From: Sulfuricaulis limicola
Lineage (GTDB): Bacteria; Pseudomonadota; Gammaproteobacteria; Acidiferrobacterales; Sulfurifustaceae
Length of the DNA stretch: 64,000 nucleotides
Direction of reading: 5' to 3'
Assembly: GCF_002355735.1 (NCBI RefSeq)
Contig: NZ_AP014879.1
Location: forward strand, 372,001-436,000
This document shows, one piece after another, positions 39,009-45,330 of this stretch. Made by a program: the position numbers and the translations under genes. The notes under the pieces are model-generated. The model was not told the DNA's origin. It worked only from the letters and a program-made list of their open reading frames with translations, and did not search any database. Each line of letters begins with the position of its first letter. Position 1 is the first letter of the stretch.

Positions 39009-39536
39009 ATGTTGACCATCGCCGATGCTGCGCCCGATTTCAGCCTGCCCGGGGTGTATCAGGGCAAGGTCAAGAATTACTCCCTGCGCGATGCCCGCGG
39101 CCAGTGGCTGGTGCTGTTTTTCTATCCAGCCGATTTCACCTTCGTCTGTCCCACCGAGGTCACCGGCTTCAGCAGGCTGGCCGGTGATTTCTCCAGGGAA
39201 AAGGCACTGATCTATGGTGTCAGTGTTGATCCGGTCGAGAGTCACCGTTCCTGGGCCGAGGAGCTGGGCGGCATCACCTATCCGCTCCTGAGCGACGCCG
39301 ACAAGAAGGTCACCCGCGCCTACCAGGTGTTGCATCCGAAGGACGGCGTCGCCATCCGCGCGACCTATGTCATCGACCCCGAGGGCATCATCCAGTACAG
39401 CGCCGCGTCCAACATGAACGTCGGCCGCAGCGTGGAGGAAACCCTGCGCGTGTTCCGCGCGCTGTGCACCGGCCGCCTGTGCCCGGCCGACTGGAAGCCC
39501 GGCGACGCCACCGGCGGGTCCGAGCATAAATATTGA
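39009..39536 (+). CDS. AhpC/TSA-family peroxiredoxin
   Basis: 175 aa from ATG 39009, preceded by a possible longer frame from 38973. The peroxidatic Cys is in FTFVCPTEV and the resolving Cys probably in GRLCPADW. The sequence DPVESHRSWAEELGGITYPL is typical of typical-2-Cys enzymes. It reduces peroxides with thiol partners and fits beside a respiratory oxidase cluster. Confidence 0.9.
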   Translation: MLTIADAAPDFSLPGVYQGKVKNYSLRDARGQWLVLFFYPADFTFVCPTEVTGFSRLAGDFSREKALIYGVSVDPVESHRSWAEELGGITYPLLSDADKKVTRAYQVLHPKDGVAIRATYVIDPEGIIQYSAASNMNVGRSVEETLRVFRALCTGRLCPADWKPGDATGGSEHKY

Positions 39537-39538
39537 TC

Positions 39539-40264
39539 ATGGCGCACCCGGTCGAGGAAAAGCGCAAAAAGATCGAGGCGCGCAGCCGCGTGCGCGAATT
39601 CGTGTTCGGCATCCAGGACGGCCTCATCAGCACCGTCGGACTGCTGGCCGGGATGCAGGCGGCGGGCTCGAGCCGCTTCGTGATCCTGATGGCCGGCACC
39701 GCGGCGATCTGCTCCGGCGCGTTTTCCATGTCGGCCGGCGCCTACCTGTCGTCCAAGGCGGAAAAGGAAATTTTCGATCACGAGCTGGAGAAAGAAGCGA
39801 AGTTCGTCGAGCAGGAGCCATACCTGGCGCAGGAGGGCCTGCTCGAAGCGCTGCACCGCGAGGGCCTGGCGCGCGAGACCTGTTATCGCATCGTCAAGCT
39901 GATGCACGAACAGAAGTCGGTGTTCGTGGCGACTTTCCAGGAAAAGGTGCTCGGGCTCGGCAGCGCCGACGTCAATAATCCGGTCAAGGGGGCGCTGGTG
40001 ATGGCGCTTTCCTTCATCGTCGGCGGCGTGCTGCCGCTGGCGCCGTTCGCCTTCCTGCCCCTGCAATGGGCCCTGGCAGCGGCGGTGCTGGTCACCGGCG
40101 CCGTGCTTTTCGGCGTCGGCATGTTCAAGGGCCGGCTCGCAGGCCAGTCCATGGGACGCTCGGGACTCGAATTCTTCGCCATTGCGCTGATCGCCACCGG
40201 CCTCGGTTACGCCGTGGGTTTCCTGCTTGAGCGCTACGCCGGCGCGCCATTGCCCGTTGCCTGA
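39539..40264 (+). CDS. VIT1/CCC1-family iron or manganese transporter
   Basis: 241 aa with five likely membrane helices. FVFGIQDGLISTVGLLAGMQ is the first helix signature and GAFSMSAGAYLSSKAEKE the second, both diagnostic of the family; an acidic cytoplasmic domain lies between helices 2 and 3 and could bind metal. It exports or stores Fe/Mn. The start is three bases after the peroxiredoxin stop, so an operon is likely. Confidence 0.88.
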   Translation: MAHPVEEKRKKIEARSRVREFVFGIQDGLISTVGLLAGMQAAGSSRFVILMAGTAAICSGAFSMSAGAYLSSKAEKEIFDHELEKEAKFVEQEPYLAQEGLLEALHREGLARETCYRIVKLMHEQKSVFVATFQEKVLGLGSADVNNPVKGALVMALSFIVGGVLPLAPFAFLPLQWALAAAVLVTGAVLFGVGMFKGRLAGQSMGRSGLEFFAIALIATGLGYAVGFLLERYAGAPLPVA

Positions 40265-40269
40265 TCTCC

Positions 40270-40692
40270 TCAGTTTTTAACCGGGCCGGCGGACGTCAGC
40301 CGGGCCACGATCAGGCCGTGGAAATAATCGTCCGGTGACTGAAAGCGCCAGCCGAGATGCGCGCGGCAGTTGGTGCACAGTGCAATGCGCCAGGCATAGC
40401 CCGGAAACCAGGTGAATTCGGTGGTGGCCTCGCCGATGGGCGCGCAACCGGGAGCTTCGCGGAAGCAACTGATGTGATAGGCGATGCCGTGCGGATTGGT
40501 GCAATGGTGCTCGTGCGCGCCCTGCACGGGAATGCGCTGGTCCTGATGCGTGACGGGATGGCGACAGGCGGCGCAGAACAGGCGTTTTTCTCTTTTCGGC
40601 CTGGTGGCTGCGGGCTGTTTCAGCGCCTGTTGCTTTTCCTCTCCTGTCCGGGGATCGAAGCAGATCAGGTTGGAGACAAGCGCCGTCGCCAT
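40270..40692 (-). CDS. Cereblon-like CULT-domain protein
   Basis: 140 aa. Two CxxC pairs (Cys40/Cys43 and Cys106/Cys109) would bind zinc. Trp95, Trp101 and Trp115 in TWFPGYAW and HLGW are spaced six and fourteen residues apart, as are the three cage tryptophans of human cereblon, and Asn66 (NPHG), Tyr99 and Phe117 also line up. The His that precedes the first Trp in human cereblon is Phe93 here. In known members the cage binds cyclic imides and uridine-like ligands. It follows a FIST-domain gene by 11 bases on the same strand. Confidence 0.8.
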   Translation of the reverse strand: MATALVSNLICFDPRTGEEKQQALKQPAATRPKREKRLFCAACRHPVTHQDQRIPVQGAHEHHCTNPHGIAYHISCFREAPGCAPIGEATTEFTWFPGYAWRIALCTNCRAHLGWRFQSPDDYFHGLIVARLTSAGPVKN

Positions 40693-40703
40693 GGCCGGTT
40701 CGC

Positions 40704-41819
40704 TCAGGAAAACAGGGTCAATACCCCGGTGAAGCCGTACAGCCGGTTGTGCGAGATCTCGCCGTTGGCGAAAAAGCCCACCAGCGGGATGTCGCCCAGT
40801 TCCTGGCGGATCGCCCGCAGTTCCGCCGAGTCGGCGCCGAACATGTGCACCCCGCGACCGAGGCAGGAATAGTACACGCCGCCCTTGGGCCGGCCGCCGA
40901 GGCGTGACTTGATGTCGCGCAGCATGCGCAGCAGGTCTTCGTAGGCGGTGCGGATGTCACGCTTGCAGAATATGATGGTGTCACCGGGATTCAAATAGCC
41001 GCCCACGGCCAGCAGTTTGTTTTCCGCGTCCACGCCCAGCAGGTTGCGCACCACGTAATCGCCGGTGTCCGAACCCTTGATCGGAAATCCAGCGAAGATA
41101 TAGCCCGCGGCGCGCCCCGGGTCGCGCGCCAGGACTTCACCCACTTCCTCGTTGAACACGTCGAGTGCCGGCCGGTCGTCGATACGGATGGCGATGTTGT
41201 TGCGGCATTCGGTGATCTGGTGTTTCTGTCCCAGCGGCGAGCAGCCCTGGGTGTGGCCGGTGGCGACCGGCACGCGCGAGGAAAACAGCACGCCGGACAG
41301 GCCGCCTTCGGTCAGGCCACCGGCGATCTGGAAATTCGGCCCGCGCGAGGAGCTCAGTCCGCCCACCAGGTAACCGTCATTGATGGTCTCGGCAAGCTCG
41401 GCGATGAAGGCCGGGGTTTTCGGATTGCGCGGGTCGCCGTGCACCACGGCAAAGCGCGCGTCCGCCTGCTCGCACCAGGCGCGGTGCCCGGAGAATTCGT
41501 CGATATCGGATTTGATGGCGGGGAACACGCGGAAGCTGTCTATCGGAAAATCGGCGATCATCAGGCTGAGCGCGGGCAGGTCGTTGTATTCCTGGGCCGT
41601 GGCGCACACGCCGACGCCGACGCTGCCGACCCAATTCACGATGTCGGTCTGTTCCTTGAAGAAGCCCAGGATGGCCGGCAGGTCGCCGGCGAGGTGATCG
41701 GTGACGTACAGAAAACCCAGGCTGGCCTCCGCGGGAATGTCGCCGATCTGCGCGAGGCAGGCGTTGGCGGCCTGCCGCCAGTCCGCGGCGGTGGCATGTG
41801 CCACGCGGAACATGTCCAT
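40704..41819 (-). CDS. FIST N/C-domain sensor protein
   Basis: 371 aa with a FIST_N domain (SLGFLYVTDHLAGDLPAILG, WVGSVGVGVC) and a C-terminal FIST_C domain (GVYYSCLGRGVHMFG and VGFFANGEISHNRLYGFTG). FIST modules are predicted to sense small ligands such as amino acids. No output domain is attached, so it may act through a partner; the CULT-domain gene is directly downstream in the same unit. Confidence 0.88.
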   Translation of the reverse strand: MDMFRVAHATAADWRQAANACLAQIGDIPAEASLGFLYVTDHLAGDLPAILGFFKEQTDIVNWVGSVGVGVCATAQEYNDLPALSLMIADFPIDSFRVFPAIKSDIDEFSGHRAWCEQADARFAVVHGDPRNPKTPAFIAELAETINDGYLVGGLSSSRGPNFQIAGGLTEGGLSGVLFSSRVPVATGHTQGCSPLGQKHQITECRNNIAIRIDDRPALDVFNEEVGEVLARDPGRAAGYIFAGFPIKGSDTGDYVVRNLLGVDAENKLLAVGGYLNPGDTIIFCKRDIRTAYEDLLRMLRDIKSRLGGRPKGGVYYSCLGRGVHMFGADSAELRAIRQELGDIPLVGFFANGEISHNRLYGFTGVLTLFS

Positions 41820-41932
41820 GACAAATCCCTTTCAAAGAGGATGGGCTGGAGCCCGATGGGAGCGATACTATAGGCAATTGAACAGGGTTAGAACCCGTCC
41901 CCCCTCAAACCCCGAAATAAAAAGGTGAATTT

Positions 41933-42997
41933 ATGACCCGGCTCATGCAAAAGCGCTCGCGCAAGACCGGCCTGCCGCCCGGCACGGCCGTGCATATCGG
42001 CGAAAAACGAACGGAACGCACGCGCCTCCAGTTGCTGCATTACGACGCTGCGCAAGTGACGGAACGGGAGCTGGAGGGCGTTGAGGAAGGCGTGAACCTG
42101 CGCCCGGGGACGGGCGTGACCTGGGTGCATGTCACGGGCGTGCACGACGTGGCCCTGCTCGACCGGCTCGGTCGCGGCTTCGGGCTGCACCCCCTGGTGC
42201 TGGAGGATATCTCGAACACCGACCAGCGTCCCAAGTTCGAGGATTACGGCGATTACATCTATGTCGTGCTCAAGATGCTGCACGACGGTACTCAGGGCCA
42301 GGAGATCAAGACAGAACAGGTGAGCATCATCTTCGGCAAGGATTACGTGTTGTCGTTCGAAGAGGCCGAGCCCACGGTTTTCGATCCGGTGCGCGAGCGC
42401 ATCCGCGCCGGACGCGCCCGGACGCGCGAGCGCGGCGCGGATTATCTGGCGTACAGTCTGCTGGATGCCGTGGTGGACAATTATTTCGCGCTGCTGGAAC
42501 AGGTAGGTGAGCGCATGGAAGAGCTGCATGGCGCGCTGCTGGCGTCGCCATCGCCGCGGATGCAGCAGAGCCTGCATCAGTTGCGGCGCGAGATGGTGTT
42601 GCTGCGCAAGTCGGTATGGCCGCTGCGTGAGGTGCTGGGCGGGCTCGAGCGAGGCCAATCCGGGCTCATCGGAAAAGAAACTTACATCTACCTGCGGGAC
42701 GTGTACGACCACACGGTGCACGTGATCGATACCATTGAAACCTTTCGTGACATGATCGGCGGCCTGATGGACATCTACCTCATGAGCCTGAGCAACCGCA
42801 TGAACGAGATCATGAAGGTGTTGACCATCATCGCCACCATTTTCATGCCGCTGACATTCATCGCCGGTGTGTACGGCATGAATTTCCGGCATATGCCCGA
42901 GTTGGGCTGGGAGTGGGGTTATCCGCTGGTACTGCTGCTGATGGCGACGGCGGCCGGCGGCATGCTGCTGTTCTTCCGCCGCAAGAAATGGATCTGA
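41933..42997 (+). CDS. corA: Magnesium/cobalt transporter CorA
   Basis: 354 aa. A large cytoplasmic domain (VLEDISNTDQRPKFEDYGDY is typical) leads to two C-terminal membrane helices with the selectivity motif YGMNF between them. The C-terminus FFRRKKWI is also classical. It faces away from the FIST gene with about 110 bases between. Confidence 0.93.
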   Translation: MTRLMQKRSRKTGLPPGTAVHIGEKRTERTRLQLLHYDAAQVTERELEGVEEGVNLRPGTGVTWVHVTGVHDVALLDRLGRGFGLHPLVLEDISNTDQRPKFEDYGDYIYVVLKMLHDGTQGQEIKTEQVSIIFGKDYVLSFEEAEPTVFDPVRERIRAGRARTRERGADYLAYSLLDAVVDNYFALLEQVGERMEELHGALLASPSPRMQQSLHQLRREMVLLRKSVWPLREVLGGLERGQSGLIGKETYIYLRDVYDHTVHVIDTIETFRDMIGGLMDIYLMSLSNRMNEIMKVLTIIATIFMPLTFIAGVYGMNFRHMPELGWEWGYPLVLLLMATAAGGMLLFFRRKKWI

Positions 42998-43024
42998 AAA
43001 GATCCAGCCGTTTCCAGGCGGCTT

Positions 43025-43363
43025 CTACTTGAGGCTGTGGATGTCGAGGGCGCAGCTGAAGGGCGGGGATTGGCTGAGCGTGAGTGACAGCGCGTAGGCC
43101 GCCGCCGGCTGCATGTTGACGGTGACCATTTCGACGTTGGCGATACGGCAGGTGGCGTAGAGTTTGGTGAGCCAGGAGTAATACACCTCGTCGATCAGGC
43201 GTATGCTCTTGAGGTCGTACACCAGGCGGCGCGCCTCGTGGCGCTGGAGAAACTCCAGTACCGGCGCGACCATGGATTCCGGATTGCTGGGGTCCAGCCC
43301 CTCGCCGGGTTCCAGCAGCACGTTGCCATCCCCGATGGGCGTCAGGTGGATGCCTTCAATCAT
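43025..43363 (-). CDS. RsbS-like STAS-domain protein
   Basis: 112 aa, a single STAS domain (VLEFLQRHEARRLVYDLKSI, LYATCRIANVEMVTVNMQ). At the position of the phosphorylated Ser59 of Bacillus RsbS the sequence reads LIDE, with Glu59. It is the last gene of a unit that starts with a diguanylate cyclase and includes RsbT/RsbX-like and RsbR-like proteins, suggesting a stressosome scaffold role. Confidence 0.78.
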   Translation of the reverse strand: MIEGIHLTPIGDGNVLLEPGEGLDPSNPESMVAPVLEFLQRHEARRLVYDLKSIRLIDEVYYSWLTKLYATCRIANVEMVTVNMQPAAAYALSLTLSQSPPFSCALDIHSLK

Positions 43364-43420
43364 GCCGTTCGGTTCCTGTATTCATGCCGTGGCTCGGTCC
43401 TTGCGCGGTGTCGGGGAAGC

Positions 43421-44299
43421 TTACTTGCCGGGACGGCTCACCTCAATGCTCAGCTGGCGGAACGCCTCTTTCAGGCCTTCGGACAGTTTGGAGCGCGTGG
43501 TGACGCTGCTGAGGTCGATGTTGAGGCTGGTCAGGGCGCGCGCGATCTCGGGCCGGATGCCGGTGAGGATGGCGGTGGCGCCCATGAGGCCGGTGGCGCG
43601 GATCATCTGGATCAGGTGATGTGACACCTGCGAGTCGATCGCCATCACGCCGGTGACGTCGATCACCACCACGCGCGCGCGGTCCGATTCGATGCGCGAC
43701 AGCAGTTTTTCCATCACGATCATGGTGCGCGAAGAGTCGAGCGAGCCGATGATGGGCAGCGTCAACACGCCTTCCCAGATCTCGGTGATCGGGGTCGAGG
43801 TCTGTTTCAGCTCCTCCTGTTGCGCCTGGATGGTCTTTTCCTTGGTTTCCAGGTAGATGTGAAATACCTCGAGGATGATGTCATTGAAGATCGTTCCGAG
43901 CAGCATCAGGATCTCGCGCGATTTTTCGAAGCTGACCGACTTGTCGGCCTCGAGGTTTTCCAGGAAGGTGCTCTGGAGGAAGTGGATGTAGCGCACGAAT
44001 TCATCCATGTCGCCGCCGCGTACCTGGATTTGTTGCGAGAAGTTGGCGAAGAACTGCCGCAGCGCCTTGTATTCCGCGCCGCGCCGGTCGACTCTGGCGC
44101 CCGCCTGCAGCAGCATGGTCAACAGCTCGAGGAATTCGAGGCTGTAATCGTTGATCTCGTTGTTCGAGAGCAGGTTTTTGTGGCCGAAAATGCTTTGCCC
44201 CTGCTTCTCGATGATGGCCGAGATCTTGCCCACATTGAGCATGAGCTGCTCGATCAATATCTGGTTGGTGGTTTTTTGCTCCGGTGTTTCCTTGGCCAT
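43421..44299 (-). CDS. RsbR-like STAS-domain scaffold protein
   Basis: 292 aa. The N-terminal 150 residues are alpha-helical (an RsbRD-like or globin-like sensor region) and the C-terminal STAS domain has VVVIDVTGVMAIDSQVSHHL and GIRPEIARAL, the pattern of RsbR paralogues; Ser replaces the first phosphorylated Thr of Bacillus RsbR. It probably binds the RsbS-like and RsbT-like neighbours. The upstream gene ends two bases before its start. Confidence 0.85.
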   Translation of the reverse strand: MAKETPEQKTTNQILIEQLMLNVGKISAIIEKQGQSIFGHKNLLSNNEINDYSLEFLELLTMLLQAGARVDRRGAEYKALRQFFANFSQQIQVRGGDMDEFVRYIHFLQSTFLENLEADKSVSFEKSREILMLLGTIFNDIILEVFHIYLETKEKTIQAQQEELKQTSTPITEIWEGVLTLPIIGSLDSSRTMIVMEKLLSRIESDRARVVVIDVTGVMAIDSQVSHHLIQMIRATGLMGATAILTGIRPEIARALTSLNIDLSSVTTRSKLSEGLKEAFRQLSIEVSRPGK

Positions 44300-44301
44300 G
44301 A

Positions 44302-45330
44302 CTATTTCCTCATGTTTGGGTTTACGCGAATGGTGAACACGGACCGATCATCGTTTTGCCGGCCCATGACCTGTCCCAGCACCAGCGCGATCAGCTGTGG
44401 ATGCAGGCGCCACAGGTCGGGAAAGCTGCGCAAGGTCATGCTGCGCCGCAGCCCGTCGGAGGCGGTAATGAGCAGGGCCTGGTCGGGAAAGGGATAAGAG
44501 AAGGTTTCCAGCGAGCGGTGGGTATGGCCCAGTACGCCGGGAGAAAACGAGATCGCTTTTTTCTCGCCACAGGAGACGAGGTAGGCGACCATGTCGCCGA
44601 CGCCGCAGATGGTCATGGTGCGGGTGGCATGGTCCACTTCGCTGATCATGGCCACGGCGCCGCGTGTCCCCTGCAGCCGGGTGCTCAGGCGCTGCATCAA
44701 TCCGTCCACCGGTGTTTCAGCGTCGAGAAAATGGCCGATGCCTGTCACGACTTCCTCGGCCTCGCGCCCATGACCGAGACCGTCCATGTGCAGCCAGCGG
44801 GTTTTGGACTCTCCGGTGCGGACCTGAATCAGGTCGCCGTTGAAGTTGCTGTCCAGGTAGGCGCGCGTATAACTGCCGAGATCGTGAAAATATCCCGGAT
44901 CGCGGTCCTCGCGATAAAAGCGCGACCACACGGCGGTGCCGTGCCAGTCCGAATTCCTGGCATGTTCGGCCGGCAGACTGTAGATCTCGCTGTCATCGGA
45001 CAGGCGCCGGATGGCGCCCAGGCCCTTGCCCATGGTGCCGGCGGTGGTATAGCCGTCCTGGACGGCGCTCGACACGTTGAGAATGCCCTTGCCGTAATCG
45101 AAGGCAAACAGGTCCAGCGCCGGTGCGGGGTCGCTGATTTCCCAGATCTGCACCAGACCGTTGCCTTCGGCGAATTTGTTCTGGTTCGTCACCATTTCAT
45201 TGCACACCAGCTCCATATGCTCGCGCTGGAGATCACCGAAACCCATTCTTCGCGACACGGCGCGCAGTTTCGAGCGCAGCAGCACCACACCGCTGTCTCC
45301 CTTCGCTCCCTGCTCGATGAGCAATTTCAT
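44302..45330 (-). CDS. RsbT-like kinase fused to RsbX/SpoIIE-type phosphatase
   Basis: 342 aa. The N-terminal GHKL-type ATPase domain shows an N-box (VCNEMVTNQNKFAEGN), a G1 box (DYGKGI) and a G2 box (TMGKGLGAIRRL). The C-terminal PP2C-like domain shows DGLGHGREAEEV and LLITASDGLR with metal-binding aspartates. Such a fusion can both phosphorylate and dephosphorylate STAS proteins. It is encoded between the diguanylate cyclase and the RsbR-like gene on the same strand. Confidence 0.85.
   Translation of the reverse strand: MKLLIEQGAKGDSGVVLLRSKLRAVSRRMGFGDLQREHMELVCNEMVTNQNKFAEGNGLVQIWEISDPAPALDLFAFDYGKGILNVSSAVQDGYTTAGTMGKGLGAIRRLSDDSEIYSLPAEHARNSDWHGTAVWSRFYREDRDPGYFHDLGSYTRAYLDSNFNGDLIQVRTGESKTRWLHMDGLGHGREAEEVVTGIGHFLDAETPVDGLMQRLSTRLQGTRGAVAMISEVDHATRTMTICGVGDMVAYLVSCGEKKAISFSPGVLGHTHRSLETFSYPFPDQALLITASDGLRRSMTLRSFPDLWRLHPQLIALVLGQVMGRQNDDRSVFTIRVNPNMRK

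Follow-up and report, generated by a model that had tools for sequence, protein, structure and literature searches.

A bacterial CULT-domain protein with a complete tryptophan cage, encoded directly downstream of a FIST gene in Sulfuricaulis limicola

MsCI4, cereblon isoform 4 of Magnetospirillum gryphiswaldense (MGR_0879), is a much-used crystallographic stand-in for cereblon, and one MsCI4 sequence is present in 47 PDB entries. The protein is a single CULT domain with zinc-binding cysteines, three tryptophans, the NPxG hairpin motif, which has been called highly conserved in CULT domains (PMC4449219), and a phenylalanine two residues ahead of the first cage tryptophan. Fold, cage and zinc site are shared by the thalidomide-binding domain of human cereblon (CRBN), and C-terminal cyclic imides have been described as modifications recognized by animal cereblon (PMC11974815 and PMC13001092). 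FBXO22, a second human ubiquitin ligase receptor used for degraders, contains a FIST domain in which Cys326 is engaged by aldehyde degraders, a use that was abolished when Glu362 was changed to alanine (PMC13316043). FIST domains also occur in NosP-type sensors, haem proteins that sense NO and have a partner histidine kinase. In these, FIST_N and FIST_C make up a free-standing protein (PMC12570481).

We analysed a 64,000-nt stretch of the Sulfuricaulis limicola genome (hereafter the window) and found a 140-residue ORF that has all of the MsCI4 features named above, directly downstream of a FIST gene (Table 1). In a phmmer search of 177,635 PDB sequences, the best solved relative of this ORF was MsCI4 (E = 1.5e-22); animal cereblon came next (E = 2.9e-13 for its top entry, 9dom, which we take to be human cereblon), and all PDB chains that matched with E < 0.3 were named cereblon. 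Residues C40, C43, N66, W95, Y99, W101, C106, C109 and W115 are identical to those of MsCI4 in the phmmer alignment, and W95-Y99-W101 have the same spacing as W79-Y83-W85 of MsCI4. An earlier reading of this DNA, made from the sequence only, had proposed that Trp95, Trp101 and Trp115 are spaced as in the drug-binding cage of human cereblon, that Cys40, Cys43, Cys106 and Cys109 line up with its zinc ligands, and that Asn66, Tyr99 and Phe117 match as well. The cage, the four cysteines, Asn66 and Tyr99 were all borne out by the MsCI4 alignment, whereas Phe117 corresponds to the phenylalanine of the Y101F mutant of MsCI4 (4v32) and not to Tyr101 of the wild type. The cage tryptophans of human cereblon are residues 380, 386 and 400, and its corresponding phenylalanine is F402. 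Pocket residue F93 is a phenylalanine, as in MsCI4, at a position where we take human cereblon to have His378. Tyr83 of MsCI4 has been tied to Tyr384 of the human protein (PMC4449219).

Table 1. Positions of the CULT and FIST features in the window
Feature	Coordinates	Strand	Evidence
CULT-domain protein, 140 aa	40270..40692	minus	phmmer against MsCI4, AlphaFold2 model, structural superposition
N-terminal LICFDP preceding the domain, this protein's version of an LFFD-like motif (short, hydrophobic-Asp)	40651..40668	minus	
First zinc motif, C40-x-x-C43	40564..40575	minus	Aligns with MsCI4 CxxC; Cys in 100/104 rows at each position
NPxG hairpin motif, N66-P-H-G69	40486..40497	minus	MsCI4 alignment and aligned rows
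Tryptophan cage stretch, W95 to W115 (W95, W101, W115)	40348..40410	minus	MsCI4 alignment; three Trp in 100/104 rows
Second zinc motif, C106-x-x-C109	40366..40377	minus	MsCI4 alignment; Cys in 102/104 and 101/104 rows
Gap between FIST stop and CULT ATG, 11 nt	40693..40703	minus	
FIST_N + FIST_C protein, 371 aa, directly upstream, same strand	40704..41819	minus	Pfam, 94.6 and 89.7 bits, above cut-offs
Weak terminator-like stem, FIST 3' end	40713..40728	minus	Among 8 terminator-like sites in 39400-43500, against a chance expectation of 3.5
FIST Glu354, aligns with FBXO22 Glu362	40758..40760	minus	GE in 16/16 subfamily members
FIST Cys319, aligns with FBXO22 Cys326	40863..40865	minus	CxGRG in 16/16 listed subfamily members

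Comparison with a second Sulfuricaulis sp. locus from a scan of GTDB species genomes (L001) revealed 25, 27 and 67 differences at codon positions 1, 2 and 3 over 138 codons, a distribution indicating that the CULT frame is protein-coding and constrained. We found no LON domain ahead of the CULT domain in the 140-residue ORF when Pfam matches with E values up to 1 were considered; only sub-threshold matches to Yippee-Mis18 and HscB_4_cys appeared. Yippee-Mis18 (PF03226) scored 18.7 bits against a gathering cut-off of 26.6 and was rejected. A search of the window's own genome with PF03226 gave no match, as did 14 controls, and is thus uninformative. The sequence-only reading had named a better hit to a different zinc-ribbon family as a refutation of its proposal; such a hit was looked for and not found, with MsrB likewise scoring below its cut-off.

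We also compared the predicted structure with solved ones. The AlphaFold2 model, built from an alignment of 41 rows, had a mean pLDDT of 88.3, with 10-residue blocks over residues 41–130 at 95–99 and low confidence in the first 30 residues, and it contains the predicted beta-tent fold. The matched fold spans residues 34–138, so that the ORF is a single domain plus a low-confidence N-terminal tail. When the model was searched against the PDB with Foldseek, places 1–29 were taken by MsCI4 ligand complexes, and CRBN appeared from place 30, interspersed with more MsCI4. Superposition with VIA-align gave a Z score of 19.6 (r.m.s.d. 1.4 Å, 102 aligned residues) for MsCI4 (6r0q_B) and 18.0 (r.m.s.d. 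1.3 Å, 100 aligned residues) for CRBN (9odr_D), and the fold lacking the three-tryptophan cage that the sequence-only reading had named as refuting it did not appear in the prediction. Sequence identity in the structural alignments was 36–40% with MsCI4 and 31% over 100 residues with CRBN (9odr_D). Unlike CRBN, the 140-residue ORF has neither a LON domain nor a DDB1-binding part; unlike MsCI4, the window protein has LICFDP in its N-terminal tail, and whereas MsCI4 is compared here as a protein alone, the window gene has a FIST neighbour. The titles of the PDB entries of solved relatives name thalidomide, pomalidomide, deoxyuridine, valerolactam and glutarimides as ligands, and CRBN with GLUL-cN (9nr3) was among the structural matches. 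Sequence, predicted fold and conservation agree that this is a CULT domain whose cage is complete. The ORF encodes a genuine CULT protein, a conclusion that we regard as practically certain, and it adds one protein to an already known bacterial CULT kind.

To describe the spread of such proteins, we scanned GTDB species genomes once, with six peptide patterns that included the cage stretch TWFPGYAW and that therefore favour intact cages, and obtained 40 CULT loci; later loci from genome samples were found with a profile built from these 40. Genes in all loci were read as long ORFs, with no gene caller. The hosts of the scan loci were Gammaproteobacteria, Rhodospirillaceae, Desulfovibrio-type and other sulfate reducers, Spirochaetes, myxobacteria (Myxococcales), an acidobacterium, Limisphaera and others. 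Profile searches detected CULT in 22 of the 57 genomes of the window's order, the Acidiferrobacterales, in 29/369 genomes of a class sample and in 21/398 of a phylum sample, the window's genome being counted each time. The statement of the sequence-only reading that bacterial CULT proteins are few is too strong in the light of these counts, and the present spread is wider than the picture drawn in 2015, when Lupas et al. described CULT mainly from delta-proteobacteria, with few alpha- and gamma-proteobacterial members and one spirochaete (PMC4287342). Because CULT is spread through the Gammaproteobacteria, tractable hosts can be chosen. Searches for CULT in plasmid and phage collections gave no match at E = 1e-5. 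Conservation was scored over 104 aligned rows, comprising 103 distinct domain sequences and the window's full protein, which is thereby counted twice. All three tryptophans together with all four cysteines were present in 98 of the rows. Tryptophans were missing in L040, L063, L090 and L091, and cysteines in these and in L057 and L089; all of these rows look frame-broken, partial or cut at a contig end.

The FIST protein encoded directly upstream had a single significant match in the PDB, namely FBXO22 (E = 5.1e-4, residues 305–361), and the match persisted with a five-sequence profile (E = 2.6e-4). Only these 57 residues of the window protein match FBXO22, and Pfam detected no F-box in it. 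The alignment pairs Cys319 and Glu354 with the FBXO22 residues Cys326 and Glu362. However, a second FIST gene in the window's genome also has the Cys/Glu motif, which marks the alignment as a family feature rather than special evidence for an FBXO22-like job. This second gene, at L125:2652-3770, lies beside genes that by eye appear to encode an endonuclease III-like protein and an RnfB-like ferredoxin. The window FIST protein is free-standing with FIST_N and FIST_C, as NosP-type sensors are, but differs from them in that its gene is not adjoined by one for a histidine kinase; a SpoIIE/HATPase-type gene is found at a distance of 2.5 kb. The terminator-like stem at the 3' end of the FIST gene argues against co-transcription of FIST and CULT. 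We also modelled an artificial FIST–CULT chain from locus L003 with AlphaFold2, using an alignment that held only five FIST rows, and obtained a mean pLDDT of 54.2 and a pTM of 0.34. Confidence was high in the CULT part and over the first ~60 residues of FIST but not in most of FIST, so this model says nothing on contact between the two proteins.

The FIST–CULT arrangement recurs in the order. Of its 22 genomes with CULT, 13 (nine in one family, f1, and four in another, f5) have a same-strand FIST gene immediately before the CULT gene; L001, L002, L003 and L006, which by their matching lengths and scores appear to duplicate four genomes of the order, were kept out of this count. The gap between the two genes is 11–45 nt in the 10 pairs whose ORF starts permit reading. 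Among the nine paired f1 loci, CorA lies beyond FIST in eight, and VIT1 and a peroxiredoxin lie beyond CULT in three. All four f5 loci retain the pair, with FIST 58–61% and CULT 44–50% identical to those of the window, and no adjoining CorA or VIT1 match was found; in one of them (L119) a peroxiredoxin-family gene follows 3.4 kb downstream, and the upstream side lies beyond the contig end. At E = 1e-161 or better, members of the FIST subfamily were present in 16 genomes of the order, three of which (G048, G040 and G031) had no CULT match. In G048 a gene for a 1,088-residue phosphoesterase-family protein (L113:1882-5148) occupies the place of CULT between VIT1 and FIST, and G037 has the order CorA–CULT–VIT1 without FIST. 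Neither FIST nor CULT, then, strictly depends on the other. Outside the order, no FIST gene was found beside CULT in the loci examined, of which those from profile searches cover about 1.5 kb on each side. For a wider view of neighbours, we removed exact duplicates together with seven loci that were broken or partial, which left 97 distinct loci, 57 of which had a same-strand upstream ORF of at least 110 residues no more than 260 nt from the domain start. The upstream families were FIST (13), DUF7939 (5), TauE (4), BatD (4) and others shown once or twice; downstream, no family occurred in more than three of 39 same-strand ORFs. The FIST–CULT pairing, of which our searches of the open-licence literature found no mention, is less expected than the CULT protein itself; FIST domains and cereblon came up together there in a paper on FBXO22 degraders.

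The explanation that we consider best, and hold with about as much belief as doubt, is that the CULT protein is soluble and reads cyclic imides, possibly in concert with the FIST protein. Such a free-standing domain would form a zinc-pinned beta-tent with a three-tryptophan cage that may take up a cyclic imide of five or six ring members, or a mimic of one, for instance uracil or uridine. Given the ligands in its solved relatives, the protein very probably binds cyclic imides in vitro. It would act as a small reader, and, because the same cage reads them in animal cereblon, the likeliest natural ligand would be imides at damaged protein or peptide C termini; by analogy with CRBN we propose this identity only tentatively. 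The remark of the sequence-only reading that the natural ligand is debated is partly outdated, as C-terminal cyclic imides are now described for animal cereblon; for bacterial CULT proteins, a literature search found no established physiological ligand. PIMT-family genes, possible makers of such imides, occur in 359 of the 369 class-sample genomes; being near universal they say nothing on the role of CULT, and their co-occurrence was discarded as support for damage reading. An alternative that we judge unlikely is that the cage senses a free small molecule (a pyrimidine such as uracil or uridine, or an unattached cyclic imide or lactam) rather than modified protein ends. MsCI4 structures do contain deoxyuridine and valerolactam (entry titles 4v31 and 5ohb), binding of uracil and uridine was reported by Lupas et al., who argued for a widespread ligand (PMC4287342), and in other families of the class CULT is preceded by a same-strand gene for a TauE/SafE-type transporter (6/29 class-sample genomes and five families, counted locus by locus). 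This alternative has to be set against the C-terminal imides read by the cage of animal cereblon, and Pfam detected no pyrimidine or imide catabolism genes among the seven window neighbours scanned. It is very improbable that the protein is instead an enzyme of the MsrB or GFA kind. The beta-tent superfamily includes such enzymes (PMC4287342), and there was a trace NCBIfam match to MsrB, but at 13.7 bits this is far under the cut-off of 179, and conservation falls on the residues of the ligand cage and zinc site.

Lacking both a LON domain and a part for docking to a ligase, a soluble cyclic-imide reader of this kind would have to hand its signal to another protein, and in this lineage the leading candidate is the FIST protein from the gene directly in front. 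This conserved neighbour, kin to FBXO22, is a concrete partner candidate, although a functional partnership, to which gene order points, is at present possible but rather doubtful. One competing explanation, to which we give a little under an even chance, is that FIST and CULT are neighbours through inheritance of a gene arrangement within one bacterial order, without functional meaning, and that CULT acts alone. Consistent with this, the adjacency was seen only in f1 and f5, and genomes with FIST alone or CULT alone exist. Presence of the two genes was associated over the 57 genomes of the order (P = 6e-5), but within f1 and f5, where 13 genomes have both, three FIST only, seven CULT only and one neither, the association vanished (Fisher P = 1.0); the order-wide value thus reflects lineage and was set aside. 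By contrast, f5 keeps the pair without the CorA and VIT1 neighbours that accompany it in f1, and the same-strand gene upstream of CULT belongs to the FIST family more often than to any other, although the order is over-sampled in that count. The CULT tree, in which 5 of 35 inner branches are well supported, fits one origin of the pairing or more. A bolder version of the partnership, which we consider improbable, is that the two proteins together constitute a bacterial module that recognizes chemically damaged protein ends or reactive metabolites, in which CULT would grip cyclic imides in its tryptophan cage and FIST would add a reactive-cysteine or cofactor pocket and relay the signal. If this were true, domains of two eukaryotic ubiquitin ligase receptors, CRBN and FBXO22, would already have acted together in bacteria.

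The N-terminal tail of the window protein carries an LFFD-like motif ~25 residues ahead of the zinc ribbon. With L057, L063 and L089–L092 left out, we found this motif in 12 of 13 FIST-paired CULTs, where shuffling predicts 0.6, the pattern having been written after the sequences were seen. It was also present in 5/8 unpaired CULTs of the order, 6/23 of the class sample, 0/20 of the phylum sample and 1/33 of the other loci. As the motif is not specific to FIST-paired proteins, we rejected it as a FIST docking element. The loci with a TauE/SafE-type upstream gene are L068, L069, L073, L076, L085 and L089, and in L072 a DUF819 gene lies upstream of CULT. The CULTs of L068, L069, L072, L073 and L076 cluster in the CULT tree with moderate support (88/84). 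Beyond CorA, at 43025-45330 of the window, genes for a STAS protein, an RsbR-like STAS protein and SpoIIE-type phosphatase/HATPase proteins stand in a row, and their homologues hold the same place in L001.
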